Source of the DNA: a virus
DNA: 64,000 bases
Reading direction: 5' to 3' (one strand)
Virus record (IMG/VR): IMGVR_UViG_3300025659_000002
Location: 99,946 to 163,945 of that record
The first letter of the stretch is position 1. Each line of letters opens with the position of its first letter. A program made the translations under genes and the position numbers. The notes beneath the pieces are model-generated. The model was not told the origin of the DNA. It saw only the letters and a program-made list of their open reading frames with translations, and did not search any database. Positions 4,553 through 50,156 of this stretch are shown one piece after another.

Positions 4553-6379
4553 TTAGTGCTTCCAATGGCCACTAACGTGAGAGTCTACTTCCATAGACAC
4601 GTCGGGGGCATAATAGTTAAAGGCTAGTATCATTAATTTTTCTACCATCTTTGCTACATCGTCTGCATCATCTTCGTGTACTTCTAATAAGATTTCATCG
4701 TGTACTACGTTTACTAGTCTAGCATCGTAGTCTTTTTTGTCTATTTCTGCTTTGAGTAAACAAAGAGCTTTTTTTGTAGTACTAGCTCCTGCTCCCTGAA
4801 AAGGGAGATTTTTTGCTTCATTCATAGCGTGAGCAACTTCACCTTTATTATCCCAATCTACATGAGACAAGTCTACACGGCGCTTATCTAATGGCGAATA
4901 ATTATATTTATTTTTTGTGGCGTCAGCTACTAAATTATCAAGTGTATATTTTATCTTTGGAAATGTTTTAAAATATAATTTGATAAGTTTTTTTGCGCCA
5001 TCTAGGTCTAATCCTAAATTTTTCCCTAGTTTAGTAGGGCCAATTCCGTAAATTAAACCGAAGTTGATGGCCTTAGTGTTCCCACGTAGTGCCAACATTT
5101 CTTTTCCTTTATCACATAAAAAATCAGTTTCCGGATCTTTCTTCCACACCTTTCCAGTATCTGGATCTAGAAAATCATCATAAGGTCTATTATATATAAG
5201 ACTTGCTGAATAACTATGTAGGTCCATGCCCTGCTCAAGTGCATAAGTAAATTTAGGTTCTTTGCTTAACTGCGTTAATAATCTCAATTCTTGCCCAGAA
5301 AAGTCAGCGGCAATTATTTTATAATCAGAGTGTTGAGATGTAAATGCCGCTCTATAAACAGCCTCTTTAGGAATATTCATTAAGTTCGGCTCTTTCCCAG
5401 CCATTCTTCCTGTTTTTGCTCCAAGTTGAACAAACCTCGCATGAATACGTTTATCTAATTTATGTACGTTTTCATTTAAGAAGGCTTCTCCATAAGTGGT
5501 TACCCTTTTAGTAGCCTGTCTATACTCTAGAAGCGCGTCGATGACTTCATGTCTTACACTTTTAAGAGTATTTACATTCGTGTTTTCTAAGGGTTTTCCT
5601 ATAATTTTTTCTAATATAGGTTTTATTTGTTGATGGGAATTATAATTGATAATGGGTTCTCTAAATAAATCTACAGAACAATGTGGTATGAAGAAATTAT
5701 CTAAATCTTTTTTAGCTTTGGCGGCTGTATCAGCTGCTAAGGTTTTAAGAGCTAACCATTTAGGTTTGTCTACATAAATTCCATTTAGTTCCATATCTCC
5801 CAACACTCTTGCAGTATCATATTCTAAAGTACCCAATTCTTTCATACCACGTTGCGCTAATAAATGTTGAATTTTAGCATATAATGGTATCAAATACTTA
5901 ACGTCTAATCCAGCATACTCTATTTGGTCGTCGTCAAATTTATCCCCAAATTCCATTTCTGAAAAACTTTTTTGAGAACTTTTATCTAAATCGACGCCGA
6001 GAAACTTTTTAGCCACTTTAGCTAAACCGCTTCCAATATTTCGCCCTTGGACTAATAGTTGGTGTCCTAACATAGTACAATGTATATTTTCTATTTCTAT
6101 CTTAAAATTAGATTTTGTAAATTGATATTCAAATTTGCTATTATGAGCTATCTTTCTTGTATCCGGTAATTTTAACCAATCTAATAATTTGAAAATATGT
6201 GTTCTAAGTTTATAAACATCATAAACATACTGTCTATATTCATTACCTACTTGTATAAGTAGTACTTTATCAGTAAGTGGATCTAATCCTGTAGTTTCAA
6301 GATCATAGCCTACTCCTTGTAAGGATTTTAAGTATTCAAGAGATTTATCTAGCTGTTTGCTAGTAGTTATGTATGTCAT
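4553..6379 (-). CDS. polA: Family A DNA polymerase with 3'-5' exonuclease domain
   Basis: 608 aa, T7-like in size. The N-terminal proofreading domain shows Exo I DLET (D26, E28) and a later YAGLDVKYLIPLY Exo III-type segment. Polymerase motif A is DFSGQELRLL, motif B RGNTKAINFGLIYG, and motif C VVHDEI (about residues 558-563). These are the catalytic Asp/Lys/Tyr residues of PolA enzymes. All Trp codons are TGG. Its start overlaps the end of the sigma gene by 20 bases, so translation is probably coupled. It is the replicative polymerase candidate; no other polymerase is seen in the window. Confidence 0.95.
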   Translation of the reverse strand: MTYITTSKQLDKSLEYLKSLQGVGYDLETTGLDPLTDKVLLIQVGNEYRQYVYDVYKLRTHIFKLLDWLKLPDTRKIAHNSKFEYQFTKSNFKIEIENIHCTMLGHQLLVQGRNIGSGLAKVAKKFLGVDLDKSSQKSFSEMEFGDKFDDDQIEYAGLDVKYLIPLYAKIQHLLAQRGMKELGTLEYDTARVLGDMELNGIYVDKPKWLALKTLAADTAAKAKKDLDNFFIPHCSVDLFREPIINYNSHQQIKPILEKIIGKPLENTNVNTLKSVRHEVIDALLEYRQATKRVTTYGEAFLNENVHKLDKRIHARFVQLGAKTGRMAGKEPNLMNIPKEAVYRAAFTSQHSDYKIIAADFSGQELRLLTQLSKEPKFTYALEQGMDLHSYSASLIYNRPYDDFLDPDTGKVWKKDPETDFLCDKGKEMLALRGNTKAINFGLIYGIGPTKLGKNLGLDLDGAKKLIKLYFKTFPKIKYTLDNLVADATKNKYNYSPLDKRRVDLSHVDWDNKGEVAHAMNEAKNLPFQGAGASTTKKALCLLKAEIDKKDYDARLVNVVHDEILLEVHEDDADDVAKMVEKLMILAFNYYAPDVSMEVDSHVSGHWKH

Positions 6380-7175
6380 CCATAAAATACCTGAGTTTAT
6401 CAGCTCTCCAAGTTCGTCTTAATTTGTTGAGAGCTTGTTCTTTAATTTGACGAATACGTTCCCTAGTTAAGCCTAAATCAATACCAATATCTCTAAGAGT
6501 ATAAGGTCTAATATGCCCAATACCAAAATACATTTTCAATATTTGTTTTTCTCTAGCAGGAAAACTGCTTATAACGTCATCGAATTCCTCTCTGAATTCA
6601 TCAATAAGATGTTCTAATTCTACTGAAGAGGCTATTGCTGGAATTACGTTTGTAAGCGTATCGTCGTTATCTGTGTGGGGTTCGTCAAGATGAATAACTG
6701 TATAGCTATATTTTAAATCCTGTAAAGCGTTAGGATTATCGACTAATTCTGCTATTTCATCATAACTAGGAACACGCTGTAATTTCGTTTCAAGGTATTC
6801 TCTAGCTTTTGTTATCTTTGTAACATTTGTTATTTTGTTTAAAGGTAGACGAATCATTTTTGCATGCTCATGAATGGAAGCCATAATAGCTTGACGAATC
6901 CACCATACAGCGTAAGTAATAAATTTGAAATTACGAGAAGTATCAAATTTAGAAAAAGCTTTAACTAATCCTAAGTTTCCTTCTGCAATTAAGTCTTCTA
7001 AACTAATACCTTGATTCTGATATTCTTTTGCAACTTTTACAACAAATCTTAGATTTGAGGTTATTACTGTATCATAAGCTTTTCTATCACCAGCCTTTGC
7101 TAAGCGCAAGAGTTCTGCTTCTTCTCCCTTTAATAAGGGGTTGTGATTTTGGATTTCTTTTAAGTAACGTTTCAT
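6360..7175 (-). CDS. RNA polymerase sigma-70 family factor (early set)
   Basis: 271 aa with full sigma regions 2-4. Region 2 has NLRFVVKVAKEYQNQG and DLIAEGNLGL. The -10 recognition/melting segment is FKFITYAVWWIRQ (around residues 84-95). Region 3 follows RLPLNK, and the region 4 HTH is LGLTRERIRQIKEQALNKLRR. It lacks region 1.1. The wording closely resembles primary sigma factors of Bacteroidota, a weak clue to the host, from family knowledge. Both Trp in WW are TGG. Its ATG overlaps the TGA stop of the upstream phosphoesterase (ATGA). Confidence 0.9.
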   Translation of the reverse strand: MKRYLKEIQNHNPLLKGEEAELLRLAKAGDRKAYDTVITSNLRFVVKVAKEYQNQGISLEDLIAEGNLGLVKAFSKFDTSRNFKFITYAVWWIRQAIMASIHEHAKMIRLPLNKITNVTKITKAREYLETKLQRVPSYDEIAELVDNPNALQDLKYSYTVIHLDEPHTDNDDTLTNVIPAIASSVELEHLIDEFREEFDDVISSFPAREKQILKMYFGIGHIRPYTLRDIGIDLGLTRERIRQIKEQALNKLRRTWRADKLRYFMDDIHNY

Positions 7176-19638: not shown

Positions 19639-21773
<2,135 letters not shown>

Positions 21774-21789
21774 TAGTATTTATTGATTT

Positions 21790-22716
21790 TTATTTAAGCT
21801 GTTCATACACTTTCTTTATGCCCTCTTCCAGAGGTGTAAATTCGAATTCTGGAAATAAGGACATTAATTTAGAAGAGTCTATATCTTTTCTGTGCTGTCC
21901 ATTAGGCATTGAAGTATCATATCTAACTTCTAAATGTTCGGCATTAAGAGCTTTTAAAGCTATAACTACCATTTCATTTATACTTAAATTTTGATTTGGT
22001 GGGGCTATGTTTACATTTTCATATGTATCAGTATAGATCATTAGTTTTATAAGTCTTGCTAAATCTCCGGCATACATAAATTGTCTAAGAGGAGTACCAT
22101 CACCCATTAAGATTATAGTAGAATCTCCATTATCAAGAGCTTTCCTAATTTTAGTTAATAAAGCAGTTAAGAAATGACTTTTAGTTGGATCAGTTTTATC
22201 CCCATCTCCGTATAAATTACATGGAATAATATAATTATAATTAGTATTATATTGAGTATTATAGGCATCAATTTGTACCGCCATAGCTCTTTTAGCATAC
22301 GCGTAAGAGAAGTTAGTGGGTGTGGGAGGGCCATCATGTAGTTGTTCCTCAGCCATCGGATATACAGTAGCCTTGCCTGGAAAAATACAAGAACTTAGGA
22401 TTCCAACAAATCTTGGTGTTTTAGTTAGCATGGCATATCTAAGTAAATTAGTATTCATCAGAATATTGTCCGTATAGTATTCTGCAGGATGCTCAATGTT
22501 ATCTAAGATACCTCCAACTCTCGCGGCCAGGTGTATTATACATGCGGGTTTTAGATGATAAAACAACTTTCCTACATCATCTTCGCTTCGCAAGTCATAG
22601 TCATCGGACGACAGATACACAGCATTGGGCATAATTTCTTGCAAACAACTGCCCACTAGACCACTTCCACCGGTTACTACTGTTAGAGTTGACATATTAC
22701 TGTTAACCACACTCAT
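21790..22716 (-). CDS. colC: GDP-colitose synthase / GDP-fucose synthase family
   Basis: 308 aa SDR: VTGGSGLVG loop, HLAARVGGI, SSCIFPGK, FSYAYAKRAM (YxxxK), PCNLYGDGD, GDGTPLRQFMYAGDLA. These match the epimerase-reductase family containing Fcl and ColC. Because ColD precedes it, the likely substrate is GDP-4-keto-3,6-dideoxymannose, giving GDP-L-colitose. Fcl activity (GDP-fucose) remains possible, since the two differ little in sequence. A second start at 22695 is possible. Confidence 0.82.
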   Translation of the reverse strand: MSVVNSNMSTLTVVTGGSGLVGSCLQEIMPNAVYLSSDDYDLRSEDDVGKLFYHLKPACIIHLAARVGGILDNIEHPAEYYTDNILMNTNLLRYAMLTKTPRFVGILSSCIFPGKATVYPMAEEQLHDGPPTPTNFSYAYAKRAMAVQIDAYNTQYNTNYNYIIPCNLYGDGDKTDPTKSHFLTALLTKIRKALDNGDSTIILMGDGTPLRQFMYAGDLARLIKLMIYTDTYENVNIAPPNQNLSINEMVVIALKALNAEHLEVRYDTSMPNGQHRKDIDSSKLMSLFPEFEFTPLEEGIKKVYEQLK

Positions 22717-22719
22717 AAA

Positions 22720-23481
22720 TTATAGGCCAAATATTTTATACATAAACTTATCTTTTTCATAAATCTCCATTTTTAAAGCTGCAGGTATTTCATAGCAATC
22801 CACAGGCTTTCTATTACTTTTCTGAGGTTTTTCAGAAGCTTCGACTTTTTTCACACTTTTAGGGCCGTTAAAAGGGACGCCGTGTTGCACACATAAAGCC
22901 TTTAATTCCTCAGAAATATTTTTTTGATGTAAGATGTGGTAGTTGTTTTTTATCCACTCCAACTCTTCACATACTTCGTCATTAGATTTTAAATCAGTTA
23001 TTTTTTTAGACCCAAATTGATCTAGGAAACCAAAAGTATAATACCCTATTTTTAAACGTGTTAGCTCTTTAAAAACATGATAGTCATAAGTATGATGCTG
23101 TCTAGATAAAACATTTGCGTGTTGCAATAAGAATTTATTGTCAAACATATTCCCCAATATTTTAACTAATCCCAAATCTCCGCTTAAACTATGTTTTTCA
23201 GAAATATAACGATTAATATGCCCTTCATTTGGATCTAAGGGCTTTGCATGACTTTCCTTAATTTGGGCATACTTAGGATCTAAACATCAAAAGGTAATTA
23301 AAGAGATATAGTAGTCTAAAGGTTCTCTGACAATACAAACTTTTTGTTCATTAGAAATTAAGCCATTATTTTTACAAAAATGATAGTTTCTATGGTGTCC
23401 CAGAGTGTACCCTTTGGGTAAAACTCTATGCGCATAAGTTCCAGCTGTCTTTGGCTGATGAAATATTATGAATTCTGGCAT
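22720..23481 (-). CDS. Second sulfotransferase-like protein (TGA-recoded)
   Basis: 253 aa from ATG 23481 (MPEFIIFHQPKTAGTYAH). An ATG at 23496 is also open but overlaps the upstream gene more. TGA at 23287-23289 joins two fragments. The P-loop PKTAGT and VREPLDYYISLI match the 5'- and 3'-phosphate loops of HexNAc/chondroitin-type sulfotransferases. The C-terminal part is basic with a KPQKSNRKP stretch. It probably sulfates a glycan built by the neighbouring transferases. Confidence 0.72.
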
Positions 23482-24122
23482 AGTATTGTTAACCATTCCT
23501 TAGAGTAAACTTTGAATTGTGGATATTTTTTTCTGATAGTCTTTACTACTGTGTTGTTATCTTCAAGAAAACATACAAAAGTGTCAGATAAAAATGGAAT
23601 AGCATCCTCTAGTGTCTGTAAAATAGTTTCATCAGTGTGGTAGGCATCATCAACAAATATGTCTATAGTCCTACCCTTTAATATTTTTTCTAAATAATTA
23701 GAGTTAGATACAAACTGATCAAACTCAAATACTTCCGGTAATTTATTTGGAAAAGCTCCTAAATCTAACAAGGTTTGTAGATTATCTTCAAAGTAAGTTA
23801 AACTGATGTCTAAACCTATTACAGAGCCATTGGGGAATAAATCCCCCCAAAGAGCTAAACCGGAACCTTTTAAAATTCCAACCTCTACTATTGTAGGAGC
23901 CATGCTGGAATTAACAAAGGGTAGTAAATGTTGGGCATATTCCGAATTGTAGGCAGTTGGCAGCATTCTGTCGCCACCCTGCATACCTATTGTCGATAGG
24001 TATCGTTCCGATCTGGGGTCCCTTTCACTAACATGTTTTATGGGCACGTTTGTTATAAGGCCCCCATATTTTTTTTCAGTTGTTTCTAGAAATTCTTCTA
24101 GTTGTGGTATAGTGTAGCTCAT
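23466..24122 (-). CDS. Class I SAM-dependent methyltransferase
   Basis: 218 aa. The SAM motif is VEVGILKGSGLALWG with VIGLDIS ending the second strand; IDIFVDDAYH is the post-I/acidic motif (Methyltransf_24/CmcI-like, which often act on sugars). A clear AAGGAG ribosome site precedes the ATG at 24122. No in-frame TGA although its neighbours have them. O-methylation of a sugar is the likely role, inferred from context. Confidence 0.75.
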   Translation of the reverse strand: MSYTIPQLEEFLETTEKKYGGLITNVPIKHVSERDPRSERYLSTIGMQGGDRMLPTAYNSEYAQHLLPFVNSSMAPTIVEVGILKGSGLALWGDLFPNGSVIGLDISLTYFEDNLQTLLDLGAFPNKLPEVFEFDQFVSNSNYLEKILKGRTIDIFVDDAYHTDETILQTLEDAIPFLSDTFVCFLEDNNTVVKTIRKKYPQFKVYSKEWLTILCQNS

Positions 24123-24130
24123 GTAACTCC

Positions 24131-24910
24131 TTATAATTTAATACTTGTTTCTCAGTATAGATCTGATATGTTTCTATCCCGATTCGCAGGACCAAACCAG
24201 GTTGCTGGAAACACTACTTTCTTATCTTTATTTTTATTTAAGTAAGCCCCTCACCAGGAAAAACTCGAGTTAGCAATGATGTTATGACTACACCTAGATA
24301 AAATATTCATATCTATAAAGTCTTTCTCTCCTTCGATGTATACTGCGCTATCCCCGAACACAGATTTACACCAAGGAACGTCATCGCTCACAATGATTTT
24401 TTTAGTATTCTTAGGAAATAAATCTAAACCTTTAAAATAGTATTCAGGTGTTAAAGGTAAATGAAACTGTGGGGTTTCTAAATAATCCCCCCTTCTAACA
24501 TGAATTCCGATAGTTTCTTCTGTAAATAGATTTCCATACTTAGAAGTGATATATTCATTAGTTTCAGATGGCAATTCAAATAGATTTTTAATAAAAAGCT
24601 CGTTATGTTTAAAATACTTATCTGATTGAAAATAACCCGTTAGTATAGAATTGTTAGAACAATTTATTTTTTTAAAATGAAAATAAGGCTCCTTGTACTC
24701 ATTCACACAGGCACTTACATTGGCATGCGGTACTTTCCAAAAAATGGTATCTTTATACACATTTACACGATCATAGTAGTGAGTTCTACACTGTATAGGC
24801 TGATCTAAGTTAAATCCGTATTCTCAGTCATTGTCGATAGCTAAAGAAACTACATTTGCTATTTGAAATAGTAAGTTCCCCAAACCACCCATTAAGTTAG
24901 CTGTTAGCAT
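24131..24910 (-). CDS. GT11 alpha-1,2-fucosyl/colitosyltransferase (TGA-recoded)
   Basis: 259 aa with TGAs at codons 28, 220 and near the end. The N-terminus GGLGNLLFQIA and HVRRGD (137-142) are GT11 signatures. SSFSW-(TGA)-GAYLN falls on the conserved SSFSWWGA motif, so TGA sits exactly where the family has Trp. GT11 enzymes move L-fucose from GDP-fucose. E. coli O55 has a GT11 that moves colitose, which fits the GMD-ColD-ColC set nearby. It overlaps the upstream GT2 by 14 bases. Confidence 0.88.
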
Positions 24911-25601
24911 TGGCTGCTTTCCTTCTTTTGAAATTTTGTATCGCTCGGTTGGCATTGACAGCTGCTTGCAGAAAAGTGGCACCGTTTGAAGCAGACTCTG
25001 GCAAAATTCTATAGTTATATAAAATTGCGTCTACAAAGTAAGGAGTAGTAACTTCGCTAAGTTTATATACCAAATCCTTGTCTCCTCCAGGACTGAGTGT
25101 TAGGTCATATCCTAGACTTTCGTTATAAGTAGTTCTTCTAAATGTTTTTAAATGGCTAGGCGGACAATCGTAAATTGCCTCATGTTCCCCTAATTTTCGA
25201 CACCACCCCTCTTTAAGAGGTAGTAGGGTTTCATCACACAGCATAAAATTTGAATATACGAATCCACGCGCTCCTTTATCATACTCTTCTAGAATTTTTG
25301 CCGTAGCTTGCGGAAGCAGTGCATCGTCCGAGTCTAAAATACCGATAATGTCAGTTGGGGAGTTAGCAATCATATTTATCATAGTCTGCAAACTTCCTAG
25401 ATTTTTAGAATTTTGTACACAAATAAATTTATCATTATTAGCTACTAGGTTTTTTATAAATTCTGCGGAGCCATCAGTACTAGCATCGTCTGTTATAAAA
25501 GCGCATCACCGGTCACAGTCTTGTGCCATTAGCGACTCATATCAGTCTTCTAAATACTTTTCTTTATTATAATTTGGTGTTATGTAAGTTATATATTCCA
25601 T
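24897..25601 (-). CDS. GT2 family glycosyltransferase (TGA-recoded)
   Basis: 234 aa; two TGAs near the N-terminus (LEDWYES and CDRWCAF), so a standard caller starts only at 25391. GT-A motifs: YITPNYNKEKYLEDW opening, FITDDASTDGS for nucleotide binding, ILDSDDALLP as the DxD metal site, GGDKD later. It adds a sugar to a growing glycan. Tight spacing to its neighbours shows an operon. Confidence 0.82.
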
Positions 25602-25615
25602 GTAAAGATATGTCC

Positions 25616-26266
25616 TTATATTTCTGAGGGCTTTAATCCTCATTTTTCTGTAAAGTATTTGGTATTGTGTCCTATTATGTTCACAGAACGATCGCCGTTT
25701 GCATATAAATTGTTTCCGTGAGATGCTTGGGTCCCTACTTCTCCATTTTTTAATACATAGCTAGCATCTTGCAGCCTCTTCCCAAAGTCTATGTCTTCGT
25801 GTCCGTAATTTCCATCAAAATTTATGTCGAAAAGACCTATAGCATCTAACACTGTTTTTCTAATTCCTAAATTAGCGGTACTGAATCAACCATCGGCGGT
25901 CTGACCATTTCAAAATTTTATAATTCCTCTAGAAACATCGGCTGTTTTTAAAGTGTCTAAATGAGCTTGTATGAAGTTATTCGAAGTGGGTATACAATCA
26001 TCATCTAGCAAGATGATATAAGGAGAAACACACAAAGCAACAGACTCATTGAATCTAGCAACTCTGTGGTAGCCAGCATCCTCATTTCATATAAATTTTG
26101 TAATTATTGAGTAAGTTGCGGCATTGATAGGGTCACAGCTTCCGTCATCATTGATGATGAGATTAAAATTAGTGTTAGTTTGTTTCCCTAACATTTTTAA
26201 GGTTTTTAACAGTTCAACTGGCCTGTTATAAGTTGTGATGCAAATATCTATATCTTTCTTTTCCAT
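25616..26266 (-). CDS. GT2 family glycosyltransferase, galactosyl-type (TGA-recoded)
   Basis: 216 aa joined across four TGAs; only a 70-aa piece is open in the standard code. Opening DICITTYNRPVELLKTL, LIINDDGS, LLDDDCIP (DxD) and the C-terminal NYGHEDIDFGKRL (ED acid/base region) match GT2 enzymes of the chondroitin-synthase/galactosyltransferase type. Start ATG 26266 overlaps the AsnB stop region (TAATATG), so they are coupled. Confidence 0.82.
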
Positions 26267-26267
26267 A

Positions 26268-27590
26268 TTAAAAACCTATTTTCTCTTCAACTTCGAAGGG
26301 AAATTTATTAATTGTTAAGTAGTGATGCAGTACGCTTTTGTAATGCCTATTTTTCAATTCTTGAGAAATTCATAAAAATTCTTGAACCACTTTTTTATCT
26401 AAAAACGGGTATCTACTTTCAATACCATACGCACCTCCTACATACTCCTCTTTGGCCAAGTAAGACTCCATAGACGAGCCGTAAAAAGACGCTCAAGGAA
26501 ACACAGTATTCAAGTCTTTTGGAAACAGTCCTCCAAAATTGGAATGTGGGTATTTCGATTTCCCACCAAACCCGTAATCTGAAAACAATTCATCAGCACC
26601 AGCTCCGCTTATGTGAATTTTTAATCCAACGCTCTTTGCTTTTGCGCACAAATACGAGAATTGATTAGAACCGTTATCGTCTACAAGTTTTAAGTTGAAT
26701 TCGTTATAGCTGGATGAATCTGAGCGTATGGTGTACACGAAGCTGTCTGTATTACGTACTATAAATTGATGTGCCAAATCCAAATCCTCGGGACGCACTG
26801 TGTACTGATCGATGCGAGTTGTGTTTTTTAAAACATCATATCTTTCCGCTAAAATCTTTTTATTCTCGTGGCCAACGTGAGTATAGGCTTGAAAAGGTAC
26901 TTTTAGTTTGTGCATTTCACAAGCAATGGCACCGCTGTCATACCCACTAGATAGCCCTATAAAGATTTTTTCTCTGATGTTAGTTTTAGCACGTTTTTTA
27001 ATGCTTTCAGAAAAAGCGATCGCTCAATCGTCAAAATCAGTTTTATATTGGTCTAAATTAAACTCGAAATTAGCGAAGGATCTTAATAGTTGCTTCGTTT
27101 TTAAATCAAAAACAAAGGTTGTGTTTGCTGCACATTTTTTTATATCAGTAAATCCAAGCTTGTATAAAGGATCGGCGTAACTTGCTATTCCGATATCCTG
27201 CGAGTTAATTGAAAAAAATAGAGGTTTTGTTTTAAAGGTATCGGTACTAATAAGTAAGATTCTTTTATTAAAGTCTACTAACGCCAAAGCAAACTCCCCA
27301 TCTAGCAATTTTGTAAATTGCTCCCCATACTCCTTGTATAGTGGAATAAGACATTTTGTATCATTATCAAAGCCATCGAAATTATAAATTTCGCCGTTAA
27401 ACAATACAACGACGTCGTCTTCTAACAAAGGCTGCGAAGTTCAAGCCCCTGTTATACTGAGCAAATTGTGCAAAAAAGTTATGCCATTAATATTTTTAAT
27501 GTTTGTACTATCGGGCCCACGCAACTGGAGAAGTCTATTGATCTGTGGTAGATTTTCTACATCTTTTGTAGTTAGTAAAAAAGAACACAT
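26268..27590 (-). CDS. AsnB-type glutamine amidotransferase (TGA-recoded)
   Basis: 440 aa across four TGAs. The chain begins MCSF, with Cys2 ready as the Ntn nucleophile of class II glutaminases, then FNGEIYNFDGF. The synthetase domain has the PP-loop LSSGYDSG (S215-S219) and SGAGADELFSDYGFGG. ATP-dependent amide transfer from Gln is implied. In polysaccharide loci such proteins amidate uronic acids (WbpS type), more plausible here than asparagine synthesis. No TGA interrupts the catalytic motifs. Confidence 0.87.
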
Positions 27591-27591
27591 G

Positions 27592-28263
27592 CTATGACTT
27601 AGTCCTTATTTGTGGTATCAATTTGTTTTTGTGTAGCCCGCCATTGGCATATCCAGGCAAAGTACATATAGATACAGCTGTTTTTCACGCTACAAAGGGC
27701 AAACTTAGTTGGTCTCTGGAAGAATACTTACAAATTTGCTCTCACCAACGTAAATTCAATACTTTGATTTTATCAGTATTTTTGCGTATGAATGTTGGAA
27801 GTTCATACAGTCCATTATTCTTTGGGTAGCATTGGCTACGATAGTAGTCCATTTGTCTATGAATGTTTTCAGGTAAGTCATATTTTAATTTCAATAACTC
27901 AGAAGCTTCTTCATAAATACAAGTTCTATGGGTATGTTTAAATACTCCTAAATCTTTGTTATGTAAATACTGCTCACAAAATTCTAAAGGATTTTCAATT
28001 ACCTCATGGGTGGGATCGTGCCATATTCAATAATTATAATCTGGGAAAAATAAATGAGGCATTATCTTATAAATTTTAGCATTTCGTCTATTTCTATATA
28101 GAGAGTCTAAACTAAAATCAAGTGCTGGTAATTGAGTTCAGCCTTCACATTTTTGTGGTTTGTCTACAAAGGCAAAGTAATCTACATCTTTAAATATATT
28201 GTTAGGAGTATGTAGTTTAGCCACATTCCCACAAATAGCTGTTATAATTGCAACTTTAGTCAT
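27592..28263 (-). CDS. DUF616 / TOD1-MUCI70-like glycosyltransferase (TGA-recoded)
   Basis: 223 aa, invisible to a standard-code caller because of four TGAs. The core YKIMPHLFFPDYNYWIWHDPT (W before I is TGA) and the C-terminal LRWWEQICKYSSRDQLSLPFV match DUF616, a glycosyltransferase-like family common in polysaccharide loci. The ATG at 28263 overlaps the upstream GT2 end by eight bases; the stop is TAG, one base from the AsnB start. Confidence 0.75.
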
Positions 28264-28921
28264 GTATTTTTTTTACGTAATTTAATTCCTGTCTTATAGT
28301 TTCTGTAGCAATATTTTGTTGAACCTGACCTGACCAGAGTCTGTTTACTACTAAACAATCGTCTAAAATTTGAGGTAGGCCGAAGGTATCATATAATCGT
28401 TTATAATATTCTACATCCATTAAATATATCAAATTTTCATCGAAAAGTAAAGGTTTATAATTTCTTATAGCTAATACGCTTGGACTACTGATAGTATTGA
28501 CTCCGTGGTGAATATTAAGACCATATCGTGGAACCATTTTAGCTCCCGAGGTTGTCTTAGAGCCTGTTACAGCTCAAACTACCTCTGAAGTAAAAGTTTT
28601 ATAAATTTTTTCAAGTGAAGTATTTTTATATAAAAAGTCATCTTGAAATAAGATTTTTATTATATCTCCACTACAGCATTTAATGGCATTATTAATATTG
28701 GCAGAACTATTTCCACGATTTAGCTCATTTTTTATATATATAATATTTAAAGTATCTTTATACTTTTTACATAAAGCTTTTATGCTCTCATTAAGGCTAT
28801 GGTCTGATACTACTACTTCGAAATCCTTAAAGGACTGTTGTAAGAATATATTAAATTGGTATTCTAAAAATTCTACCCCTTTCCCTAACATTTCATAAGT
28901 AGGTATAGCTATTGATAACAT
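28256..28921 (-). CDS. GT2 family glycosyltransferase (TGA-recoded)
   Basis: 221 aa with one TGA at 28574-28576 (EVV-W-AVTGSK). Opening MLSIAIPTYEMLGKG, VVSDHS for nucleotide contact, LFQDDF as the DxD-like site and LMDVEYYKRL in the acceptor region identify GT2. A 75-bp gap (28922-28996) with no clear signal separates it from the next gene upstream. Confidence 0.8.
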
Positions 28922-28996
28922 TATATTAATTCCTTAATTCCATTGTTTCATAAGTGTGTTTTTCACGCAGCCTCCTATTAGTTGTATTTTATATAT

Positions 28997-29641
28997 TTAT
29001 ACACCTAAGCACTGAGAATAGTTTCTTTTCCCTTTTAGTATATCACTAAAACCCTCTTCTTGTCCACAAATTCTTGGATTAGCAAAATAAGTATTTAAAG
29101 TTGGCTGTAAGTTAGAATAATAATAGTTATCTATAGGAATATTTAACTGCTTTAACTCTTCTACGATTTTATGAAATACAAAATGTTGATCATTTAGTAG
29201 ATAAGAGTGTGTAGTTAACCCCCTACTCTTAGCTATATATTTTGAAACAGGTATTGCCGGTTCTAAAAAATTAGCTCCTAAATAAAATAAATCTCAATCC
29301 TCTGGTAATTCTGTACAAGTTTGTTTTAGTCTATCAAAAAAATTATTGCAAAATAATACATCATCTTCTAAGATCCATATAGTTTTATACCTATTTATAC
29401 TGGCATCTTCTATAACTTTTTGATGACTAGTAAGACATCCCCAAGCTCCTTTACAGGCCCCCTTCCAGTGAGAAGGTATAATTGTTAATGGGTCGTCAGC
29501 GTCTATAGCTTTAAAAATTTTTACAGTAGGCAAACTATCATTTGGTATACTAGCTCCCCATTTAGTTTTAAAAGAAATTAGTCTATCCGGTCGTTTATGT
29601 AAGTTAATACAATAAATGGCGTCTATGTCTGTCAATTTCAT
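28997..29641 (-). CDS. GT25 family glycosyltransferase, copy 1 (TGA-recoded)
   Basis: 214 aa. IDAIYCINLHKRPDRL is the GT25 opening, AWGCLTSHQKVI and ILEDDVLF the central motifs (DD metal site), then a C-terminal CGQEEGFSDI. The single TGA is at 29294-29296 (LPED-W-DLFYLG). It is a tandem duplicate of the next gene; in that copy the matching codon is TGG. GT25 enzymes are LPS/LOS galactosyltransferase relatives. Confidence 0.85.
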
Positions 29642-29643
29642 AA

Positions 29644-30294
29644 TTAAAAGCCAAGCTCACTTGTGTAGTTACATACCCTTCCTTGGATATCACTATAGCT
29701 ATTATTGTCCTGACCACATAATCTAGGTACACTAAAATATGTATTAAATCTTTTTTGTAAATCGGTCACGTAGTATAAGTCTATAGGATCTTTTGCTACG
29801 GGCAATTCCTTAATTATAGTTTGAAAAATATTATGTTGATTGTTTAAAAGGTAGGCGTGAGTAGTAAGGCCTACAGTCGTGGCAAGATGTTGTGATACAC
29901 GTTCAAGCGGTTCTTGTGGGTTATAGCCTAAGTATAGTCAGTCCCAATCCTCTGGTAATTCATCTAATACTATTGCTAATTTATTAGAAAAATCAGCATC
30001 AAAAGTAACGTCATCTTCTAAAATCATAATAGTTGTTTCATTGGAGGTTACAGCCTCTCTAATAACTTTTAAGTGACTTAGAGTACAAGCATAAGCCCCA
30101 GGCAGGCCCCTTCAGCCTGCCGGGAATGCTTGAGATTGACTACGAGCGTCTACCGCTTCGAGAATCTGTAAGGAGGGTATGTCAACGTTTGTGGTAAAAG
30201 CATTTTTGAATCTTTCTTCAAAAAGTGTTAATCTATCTGGTCTGCGTTTTAAGTTTATACAGTAAATTTTGTCTACAATGTTATTTAATTGCAT
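29644..30294 (-). CDS. GT25 family glycosyltransferase, copy 2 (TGA-recoded)
   Basis: 216 aa. VDKIYCINLKRRPDRL, YACTLSHLKVI, ILEDDVTF and LCGQDNNSYSDI align with copy 1 along the whole length. TGAs at 30112-30114 (PAG-W-RG) and 29938-29940 (DWD-W-LYLG). The first aligns with a TGG in copy 1 (PSHWKG). It ends TAA two bases before copy 1 begins. Confidence 0.85.
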
Positions 30295-42667: not shown

Positions 42668-42795
42668 AAAAATTAATGGTTAATCGCTTCGCTTCATTAT
42701 TCTTATACCAAAAAATATAGGCAATTATCCTTGGAAAGTTCCACAATGTTGTTTATATTTAAAATGAAATTAAATTAAATTAACCGACGTAAAAT
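42668..42795. promoter_or_regulatory. Divergent control region for early (-) and tail (+) operons
   Basis: 128 bp without a gene. Toward the - strand it holds the second copy of the 18-bp repeat with a TATAAG box about 30 bases from the helicase ATG. Toward the + strand it holds TTGG at 42731-42734 and TATATTTA at 42754-42761, 19 bases apart, which resembles a Bacteroidota-type promoter. No SD precedes the + strand ATG at 42796. Promoter calls are by eye. Confidence 0.4.
42699..42716. repeat. 18-bp intergenic repeat, copy 2
   Basis: Identical to 12813-12830. On the - strand it places GGTATAAGAAT upstream of the helicase gene, where a promoter is expected. Confidence 0.6.
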
Positions 42796-48321: not shown

Positions 48322-49440
48322 ATGACAGATCACGTATCACGAGCTATAAACGCTATACAAGATGAAATTAAAGGAAGTGTAAATAACCTTATTTCTCCAT
48401 TTTTAAACGTAGGAAACCAACTATTAGGAACTCTTCTTCCAGATTTGGGTGTAGAAAAAACTTCACCTAATAACTTAGCTGAAGAAATAGAAAATATGAC
48501 TGACGTTGGAGCAGTGCTTATGGTATACTCTAAAGACCCTGGAGAAGTAACTCATCGTTCTAATAAATTTTTCCTTCATTCCCTTAATTTTACATATAAA
48601 GAGAAGGCGCAATTAAATGAAACTTTTGATTCACCAGCTATTTCATTTTTTGGGGATTCAATAAGAATCTATAATTTTGCAGGAACAGCTATAGATTACG
48701 CAAGTGAAAGTGGGAGGGCTTGGGAACATTTTCATCAAAGTAGTTTAATAAAAATGTATGATGATATATTGCGCGGTACTAAATTAGTTCAAAATAACAG
48801 TATAGCCATTATGAAAATAATGAATCATACTATTTGGGGGTATCCTTTAAATTTTAGAGGCGGTTATAACGCTGCACAAGATAAGGTAGCTAGCTTTTCT
48901 ATGAGCTGAATAGTCTTAAAACACACCTTGACCTTTCCTAGTATAGTTACGGATGATAACTTAAAAACACTGTACACAACAGTAGACGCAAGCGTAGATC
49001 AAGCTTACTTAAATAATATAAATAGTGTACTGGATAAAACAAATAAATTACTTATATTAAAAGAATACGATGTTAGTTTAGAGTCACTGCCTGATTTAGA
49101 TCATATACCGTCAGCTTCTCTACAAAACCACTTAGAGGATCTAACGTCCTTAAATTTTTATGCGAAGGTTTCAGAAAATATAAAAGCTTTACAAGATGAT
49201 TATAAAAATAAGCTATCTGCCGGCATTTCCAATGTGTCAGCTGTATTGAGTACGCAATTTCCGGGTGGTTGAGATCAGATAGACTCATTTTTTCAAGATT
49301 TAGGAAAATACTCTACTGGAGCATTTAGTACTGCGACAATTGATGAGAATGAATTTTTAAATTTTCAACTTTCTCTATTAACTATTTTAGAAATAAAAAA
49401 TAGATTAACAACTTTTAAAATACAAAACCTATTATCATAA
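48322..49440 (+). CDS. Baseplate/tail protein of unknown type (TGA-recoded)
   Basis: 372 aa with TGAs near 48907 and 49270; SD AGGAGC just ahead of the ATG. The middle contains LMVYSKDPGEVTHRSNKF and YASESGRAWEHFHQSSLIKM. The C-terminal part is helical. It ends TAATG onto the sigma-like gene. Structural role inferred from the operon; family not recognised. Confidence 0.55.
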
Positions 49441-50156
49441 TGACTACTTTAAAACAAAAAGAATTAGAATTATTTAATCAATATAGATCTGGCGACAATG
49501 AAGCTAGAACTAAATTATTAACCTCCCTTAAGCCTCTAATTAGGGGTCAGGCGAACAAATTTACTAATTCGGGACTTCCGCCAATGGCTATTGAGTTAGA
49601 GGCTCATAGGCTAGCTAGCGACTCTTTAAACACATATGATCCTAGCAAAGCTCAGTTAAATACTCATGTAACTAATTGATTAAAGAAATTAAGTAGATTT
49701 GTTACTAATTATCAAAATGTTGGACATATACCAGAACCTAGAGCCTTAATTATAGGAAAGTATAATGCTATTTTTGATAATTTAGAAGCTGATAAAGGTA
49801 GAGAGCCTACTATTACAGAGTTGGCGGATGCTATGAATTTGCCTCCAGTTGAAATCGAAAGACTACAAACAGAGCTTAGGAAGGATTTATCTATTTCTTT
49901 ACCAGAGGATAAAGAGGATATAGGTGGCTTTTATTTTCATGCTAAACCTGGCAGTTTTAATAAATCAAAAGAAGCGTTGGAATTTACATACTTTGATGCT
50001 GATCCTATAGATAAAAAAATATTAGAATATACTTTTGGTATAGGTGGTCAGGGCATCTTAAGAAATAAAGATATTCAAAAAGAATTAAAACTAAGCGCTG
50101 CTAACTTAAAAAAACGAAAGGAAGAATTAGCTACTACTTTAGATAGTATCATATAA
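49440..50156 (+). CDS. Second sigma-70-like factor, late-type (TGA-recoded)
   Basis: 238 aa, inside the baseplate operon. Region 2 reads LFNQYRSGDNEARTKLLTSL with LIRGQANKF and DSLNTYDPSKAQLNTHVTN, then a TGA at codon 80 (49677-49679) before LKKLSRFV. In sigma region 2 this slot normally carries Trp in the melting helix. Region 3-like REPTITELADAMNLPPVEIE follows, and a C-terminal HTH (NKDIQKELKLSAANLKKRKEEL). T4 gp55-type late factors sit in similar contexts. Translation depends on UGA decoding. Confidence 0.8.

Follow-up and report, generated by a model that had tools for sequence, protein, structure and literature searches.

The window analysed here, a stretch of 64,000 nucleotides, corresponds to positions 99946-163945 of a virus record of 163,945 bases (G000; IMGVR_UViG_3300025659_000002). 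The same phage is represented, opened at another point, by a second record of 205,518 bases (G001), and the overlaps between the two records are 99.999 and 100% identical. Joining them gave a circular sequence of 213,557 bases (u), the genome of a tailed phage of about 213 kb, in which each coordinate equals the window position plus 1337; the length of u is uncertain at the junction of G000 and G001, where the sequence is repeat-rich. The repeat-rich stretch around this junction lies at about 86976-98608 of G000. On the plus strand of the window, a late operon of tail, baseplate and fibre genes, most of them with in-frame TGA codons, occupies 42796-63999 and continues past the window end. Within it, at 49440-50156 (+), is the gene for P0001, an open frame of 238 residues, terminated by TAA, if the TGA at codon 80 (49677-49679) is read as an amino acid. 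This is the single TGA of the gene, and the overlapping phage records G000, G001 and G002 all carry it unchanged.

Relatives of P0001 were found at 40 IMG/VR loci besides the phage's own two copies (42 loci returned), with further ones among named phages, and the homology extends both upstream and downstream of the TGA. As a single sequence, P0001 matches Pfam in region 3 only (Sigma70_r3, 32.8 bits, above the cut-off) and the sigma factor family PHROG 351 (4e-11), and a profile built from 26 relatives matches SigA, RpoS and RpoD chains in the PDB (5e-16 to 1e-13) over regions 2-4. The AlphaFold model is modest (mean pLDDT 74, pTM 0.45); Foldseek with this model returned SigA and sigma S (best E 5e-7 to 1e-6, probability 1.00), with TM-scores of only around 0.3-0.4. 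The sequence profile is therefore stronger evidence than the fold search. By sequence and predicted fold, P0001 is a genuine sigma-70-family factor comprising regions 2-3-4. Codon 80, the sole Trp of the protein, sits in region 2 of the family profile alignment, in the column that corresponds to the second Trp of YATWW, a sigma-70 motif. A preliminary description of this DNA had reported a sigma-like protein in the baseplate operon, an in-frame TGA within region 2, and a stub of 79 residues in the absence of UGA decoding; all of this is borne out, and the stub would end inside region 2. It had also placed the TGA where Trp belongs, which agrees with the YATWW column and is too strong for the family, in which this column contains W, Y, H, N, S, T or Q.

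In standard-code relatives, 27 of the 71 positions aligned with late-operon TGA codons are Trp and one is Ser; of the 54 aligned with TGG codons of the operon, 29 are Trp. These sums were taken over L025, L029 and L031, which are unrecoded or nearly so, L032 and L033 being omitted as duplicates of L031. Recoded relatives often share TGA at the same late-operon positions. Because Trp aligns at TGA codons in relatives without recoding, UGA is, on the evidence of these alignments, Trp in the phage late genes. The codon is unevenly distributed among genes called with a custom script (no published caller). In-frame TGA occurs in 13 of the 16 genes of the late block surrounding P0001, including the three immediately upstream of it, and most of the neighbours have more TGA codons than P0001 has. 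Another plus-strand block has TGA in 20 of 42 genes, while three minus-strand blocks (19, 12 and 84 genes) have it in none of 115 and a further block in one of 34. Unlike these, a minus-strand block at about 19639-30294 of the window contains TGA in eight of its 14 genes, and strand is therefore an imperfect predictor of TGA use. TGA was called as the stop of 28 genes; where these are minus-strand genes, a TAA or TAG often follows within a few codons. The overall distribution fits a code that would change in the course of infection, a model already put forward for other phages with recoding (PMC11210395, PMC10607447).

A tRNA(UCA) gene of 97 nt, with the loop UCCAA in a second arm, was detected by ARAGORN at its default threshold at L017:10650-10746, equivalent to u 70650-70746 and 5.3 kb beyond the window end; the window itself contains no UCA tRNA. 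In u this gene lies between a small gene adjoining the holin gene and the endolysin gene; G004, G005 and G006, three recoded relatives, have it at the equivalent position ahead of the endolysin gene. None was found in the unrecoded G009 (179,902 bases) or in the fragments G007 and G008, the latter a recoded relative of 52 kb. The tRNA(UCA) scores 48.5 bits against the Rfam tRNA-Sec model RF01852 (cut-off 47), but this match does not discriminate, since the tRNA-Ser(UGA) of the same phage scores higher (50.3). With an undiscriminating match and TGA aligning with Trp, the assignment of TGA to Ser or Sec was rejected. Reading of UGA by the phage's tRNA-Trp(CCA), at u 172209-172281, was also set aside: its anticodon stem has five pairs in the ARAGORN drawing, and PMC13092985 describes CCA tRNAs with a 4-bp anticodon stem as able to read UGA. 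Elsewhere, a tRNA with the amber anticodon CUA is present in the tRNA cluster (G001:105393-105469, minus strand), while TAG still terminates many genes, and ARAGORN reported a two-base anticodon for the tRNA at G001:118551-118623 (minus strand). A search of G001, G004 and G009 yielded neither a TrpRS nor a release-factor gene; because a phage TrpRS was not found, we infer that the host TrpRS must charge the tRNA(UCA). The cassette bearing this tRNA is nearly free of TGA in u (one TGA and 23 TGG in 12 genes) and in G004 too; TGA is present in the cassette of G006 and abundant in that of G005, which led us to reject the idea that the whole cassette must be TGA-free. Judging by these codon counts, cassette expression may precede decoding in some of these phages, so that the tRNA would have a head start.

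The 'variable arm' of the tRNA(UCA) is a putative hairpin with a Trp-anticodon-like loop, which reads UCCAA in u, G004, G005 and G006. With a DNA pattern silent on this arm, we examined 80 of at least 120 matches; among the 80 matches listed, 37 had UCA tRNAs, all long-armed and some of them copies of one phage, and 27 of these 37 had TCCAA in the arm. A second DNA pattern required TCCAA. Together the two patterns gave at least 34 distinct UCA tRNAs, and 25 of the 34 among the matches listed have a CCA arm; with those of G004, G005 and G006, these make a set of 28 distinct CCA-arm tRNAs, part of which came from the pattern that required TCCAA. The CCA lies inside a hairpin loop closed by a stem of at least three Watson-Crick pairs in 27 of the 28, and the set has 23 distinct stems. 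The loop is exactly CUCCAAA in nine and GUCCAAA in eight, the former being the tRNA-Trp loop, that of the phage's own tRNA-Trp included. With the register fixed, 126 of the 140 cells of the arm are paired across the 28 tRNAs, compared with a mean of 71 and a maximum of 88 in shuffles; none of 2000 shuffles reached 126, in a control that ignores relatedness. As judged by this covariation, the second hairpin, with CCA in its loop, is kept by compensatory changes across the 28 tRNAs. No CCAA was found in the long arms of the Leu (n=34), Ser (n=35) and Tyr (n=11) tRNAs at the same loci. Minimum-energy folds contain the CCA hairpin in four of the six tRNAs folded (L076, L088, L117 and L136); in the other two, L172 and the phage's own tRNA (L119), it is absent and the arm is mispaired with the T arm. 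The fold of L119 counts against the hairpin in the window's phage, where support comes from the Rfam alignment and the covariation within the family, which together suggest that it forms.

The ends of these tRNAs also resemble those of tRNA-Trp. G73 is present in all 28 CCA-arm tRNAs, A1-U72 in 22 and G3-C70 in 24, and A1-U72 occurs in none of the nine UCA tRNAs without a CCA arm; the phage's own tRNA(UCA) has G1-U72. In a BLAST search with L172, positions 47-96, which include the second arm, matched the 3' halves of tRNA-Trp genes in named records with 80-89% identity among the matches listed. The loop TCCAAA is also found in bacterial UCA tRNAs of GTDB that resemble real tRNA-Sec: of 14 hits to a pattern that required this loop, 12 fold as UCA tRNAs, nine with Sec-like ends and three with A1-U72. 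A contig of Bacteroides neonati (L327) carries a UCA tRNA with both the CCA arm and A1-U72, a hint at the hosts of such phages. The contrast in recoding between the two groups of loci is moderate, with an open-frame coverage gain of at least 0.10 at 15 of 23 CCA-arm loci (two CCA loci without scored frames being excluded) and at two of nine other UCA loci.

In tRNA-Trp, the anticodon and the identity normally reside in the same three bases. Since the anticodon doubles as Trp identity, a change from CCA to UCA should weaken charging by TrpRS. The major identity elements for TrpRS are given as the anticodon, the discriminator base and the first acceptor pair in PMC9976931. We lean slightly towards the view that the phage tRNA has two anticodons, in which the UCA arm would decode UGA and the CCA arm would be shown to the host TrpRS for charging. 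Decoding and identity would then be split between two arms, so that the usual conflict of suppressor tRNAs would be removed, and late recoding without a phage TrpRS could be explained. A literature search, short of most subscription papers and preprints, returned no second or dual anticodon and no opal suppressor with such a variable arm; the novelty of a two-anticodon tRNA is provisional.

Two classes of promoter-like motif were found in front of genes. The first is bipartite, TTG-N20-TATATTTA, and lies at 42731-42761 (+), leaving 34 nt to the gene that opens the late operon. In seven genomes or fragments, TTG stands exactly 23 nt before TATATTTA at 28 of 35 intergenic sites located within 150 nt before a gene, compared with seven of 180 sites inside genes. 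The bipartite motif precedes the late operon in u and G004 and the lysis/tRNA cassette in u, G004, G005 and G006. Because the late operon and the cassette share it, the suppressor tRNA and P0001 are probably switched on together, the tRNA not being a separate signal. The second class, GGTATAAGA, is exemplified at 42701-42709 (-) in front of a minus-strand helicase gene. In u, intergenic DNA contains 18 copies against 1.4 expected per strand, and every one of them is on the minus strand; the motif is strand-polar before minus-strand genes, is preceded by TTTTTACCTTAAAAA in some copies, and is also found in relatives. A candidate late promoter of the plus strand, TTCTTATACC, was withdrawn: reversed, it reads as GGTATAAGA, which belongs to minus-strand genes, and it had surfaced because each divergent gap had been assigned to both strands. 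The T4-type motif TATAAATA was absent before plus-strand genes in four genomes (0/19, 0/25, 0/5 and 0/20 upstream regions).

The phage also encodes a second sigma factor, P0002, an RpoD-like protein of 271 aa whose gene (6360-7175, minus strand) has no in-frame TGA. In Pfam its regions 2 and 4 score above the cut-offs and region 3 below. The gene is on the opposite strand to that of P0001, among replication genes and adjoining the DNA polymerase gene. Matches to P0002 occur in 16 of the 18 records searched, the phage itself counted, the two without a match being G006 (a 73 kb fragment) and G015. Because P0002 is TGA-free and would be made before the late genes, it is a natural candidate for the starter of late transcription, and would be a better one than P0001.

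The preliminary description had proposed that the TGA of P0001 is a built-in timer: late transcription would need full-length P0001, which could be made only once the suppressor tRNA had appeared, and the codon would thereby delay the late genes. Such a timer finds support in the nature of P0001 as a real sigma factor, in the truncation inside region 2 and in codon 80 being its only Trp, but the close relatives of P0001, which share 54-62% identity, speak against it. Four of these are recoded, with TGA in seven of eight (L026), seven of eight (L027), four of six (L028) and six of eight (L030) plus-strand frames of at least 200 aa; the operons of L025, L029 and L031-L033 show little or no recoding. 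TGA is absent from the sigma gene in all four recoded relatives, three of which have a sigma without any Trp, while the fourth has one Trp that is not written TGA. Because of this, a timer conserved across the clade is excluded by the sequences of these four recoded close relatives, an exclusion that covers the conserved timer and not one private to the phage. Moreover, the P0001 gene is not singled out, since TGA occurs throughout the surrounding block and in greater number in most of its neighbours, and P0001 cannot first turn on the late operon, because its gene lies inside that operon. With a TGA-free second sigma and the late promoter motif also in front of the tRNA cassette, we regard the timer as very unlikely. 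A sequencing error or a decaying gene would account for a lone TGA in a gene whose close relatives have none, but is scarcely credible when the codon is the same in three overlapping records, the remainder of the gene is conserved at the identities given above, and the whole operon, neighbouring genes included, is recoded.

Two further roles for P0001 deserve consideration. It might read the TTG-N20-TATATTTA promoters of the late genes, that of the tRNA cassette included, so that sigma and tRNA would raise each other in a positive feedback. The promoter motif common to the operon and the cassette, and the alignment of P0001 with known sigma factors through region 4, speak for this, whereas the motif resembles ordinary sigma-70-like promoters and relatives without TGA in the sigma gene have no such arm of the loop; we consider it unlikely. 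Alternatively, P0001 might be packaged in the virion and act as soon as the next cell is infected, for instance at the GGTATAAGA promoters that precede minus-strand genes. Its place among structural genes is kept in a distant relative, Salmonella phage Arash, and the minus-strand bias of GGTATAAGA in u would provide a second class of promoter to be read; however, no packaging signal is known and a literature search on sigma factors in virions returned nothing relevant, and this role appears improbable. Because of the TGA distribution and the relatives, we think it likely that P0001 is an ordinary recoded late gene and that its TGA is one incidental case of operon-wide recoding.

For such an ordinary recoded late gene, events may be arranged as follows. 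P0002 or a host sigma would start the TTG-N20-TATATTTA promoters, and the late mRNA and the tRNA(UCA) would emerge together. The phage tRNA(UCA), whose cassette is preceded by a separate copy of the late promoter motif, would be charged by the host TrpRS and decode UGA. P0001 would then be produced late, alongside the structural proteins, and may reinforce transcription or serve a later step. Recoding would thus gate the late operon as a whole and not the P0001 gene specifically.

The sigma codon is unconvincing as a timer, and establishing this saves effort. What matters is the machinery on which the codon depends, and the tRNA(UCA) is the part worth pursuing. If its CCA-bearing second arm acts as suggested, it would be a natural solution to the conflict between anticodon and identity, a test case for anticodon recognition by TrpRS, and an idea for designing UGA suppressors.

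The features of this phage can be compared with several known systems. Gp10 of Salmonella phage Arash and its IMG/VR relatives belong to the same sigma family as P0001 (32% identity), and in Arash the sigma gene has the same place among the structural genes, with the same locus order, and a Trp in the codon-80 column; however, that Trp is written TGG and the sigma gene contains no TGA. In T4, gp55 is the late sigma, a phage sigma linked to late genes. P0001 is likewise a phage sigma linked to late genes, whereas the T4-type TATAAATA is lacking from the plus-strand upstream regions of the four genomes here. The tRNA(UCA) shares the UCA anticodon and the long variable arm with tRNA-Sec (RF01852), but A1-U72 is found in 22 of 28 CCA-arm tRNAs and in none of nine Sec-like ones, and the phage TGA aligns with Trp, not Ser. 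The CCA-arm tRNAs have the G73, A1-U72 and G3-C70 ends of tRNA-Trp(CCA) (28, 22 and 24 of 28), from which they differ in an extra UCA anticodon arm that follows the D arm and precedes the CCA arm. Recoding as a regulator of lytic genes is reportedly the subject of a primary paper by Borges et al. (2022). This phage resembles those predicted to use table 4 in having the standard code in early-type genes, TGA as Trp in late structural genes and a phage-borne tRNA(UCA), and differs from them in that a sigma gene is among the recoded genes. In the accessible parts of the published accounts, Sup-TCA tRNAs are reported for 11 of the 73 phages with predicted table 4 use (PMC11210395), and recoding is summarised as sitting mainly in late genes (PMC10607447). 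Compared with the phages in these parts of the two papers, the tRNA(UCA) here is distinguished by a second arm that resembles the Trp anticodon arm.
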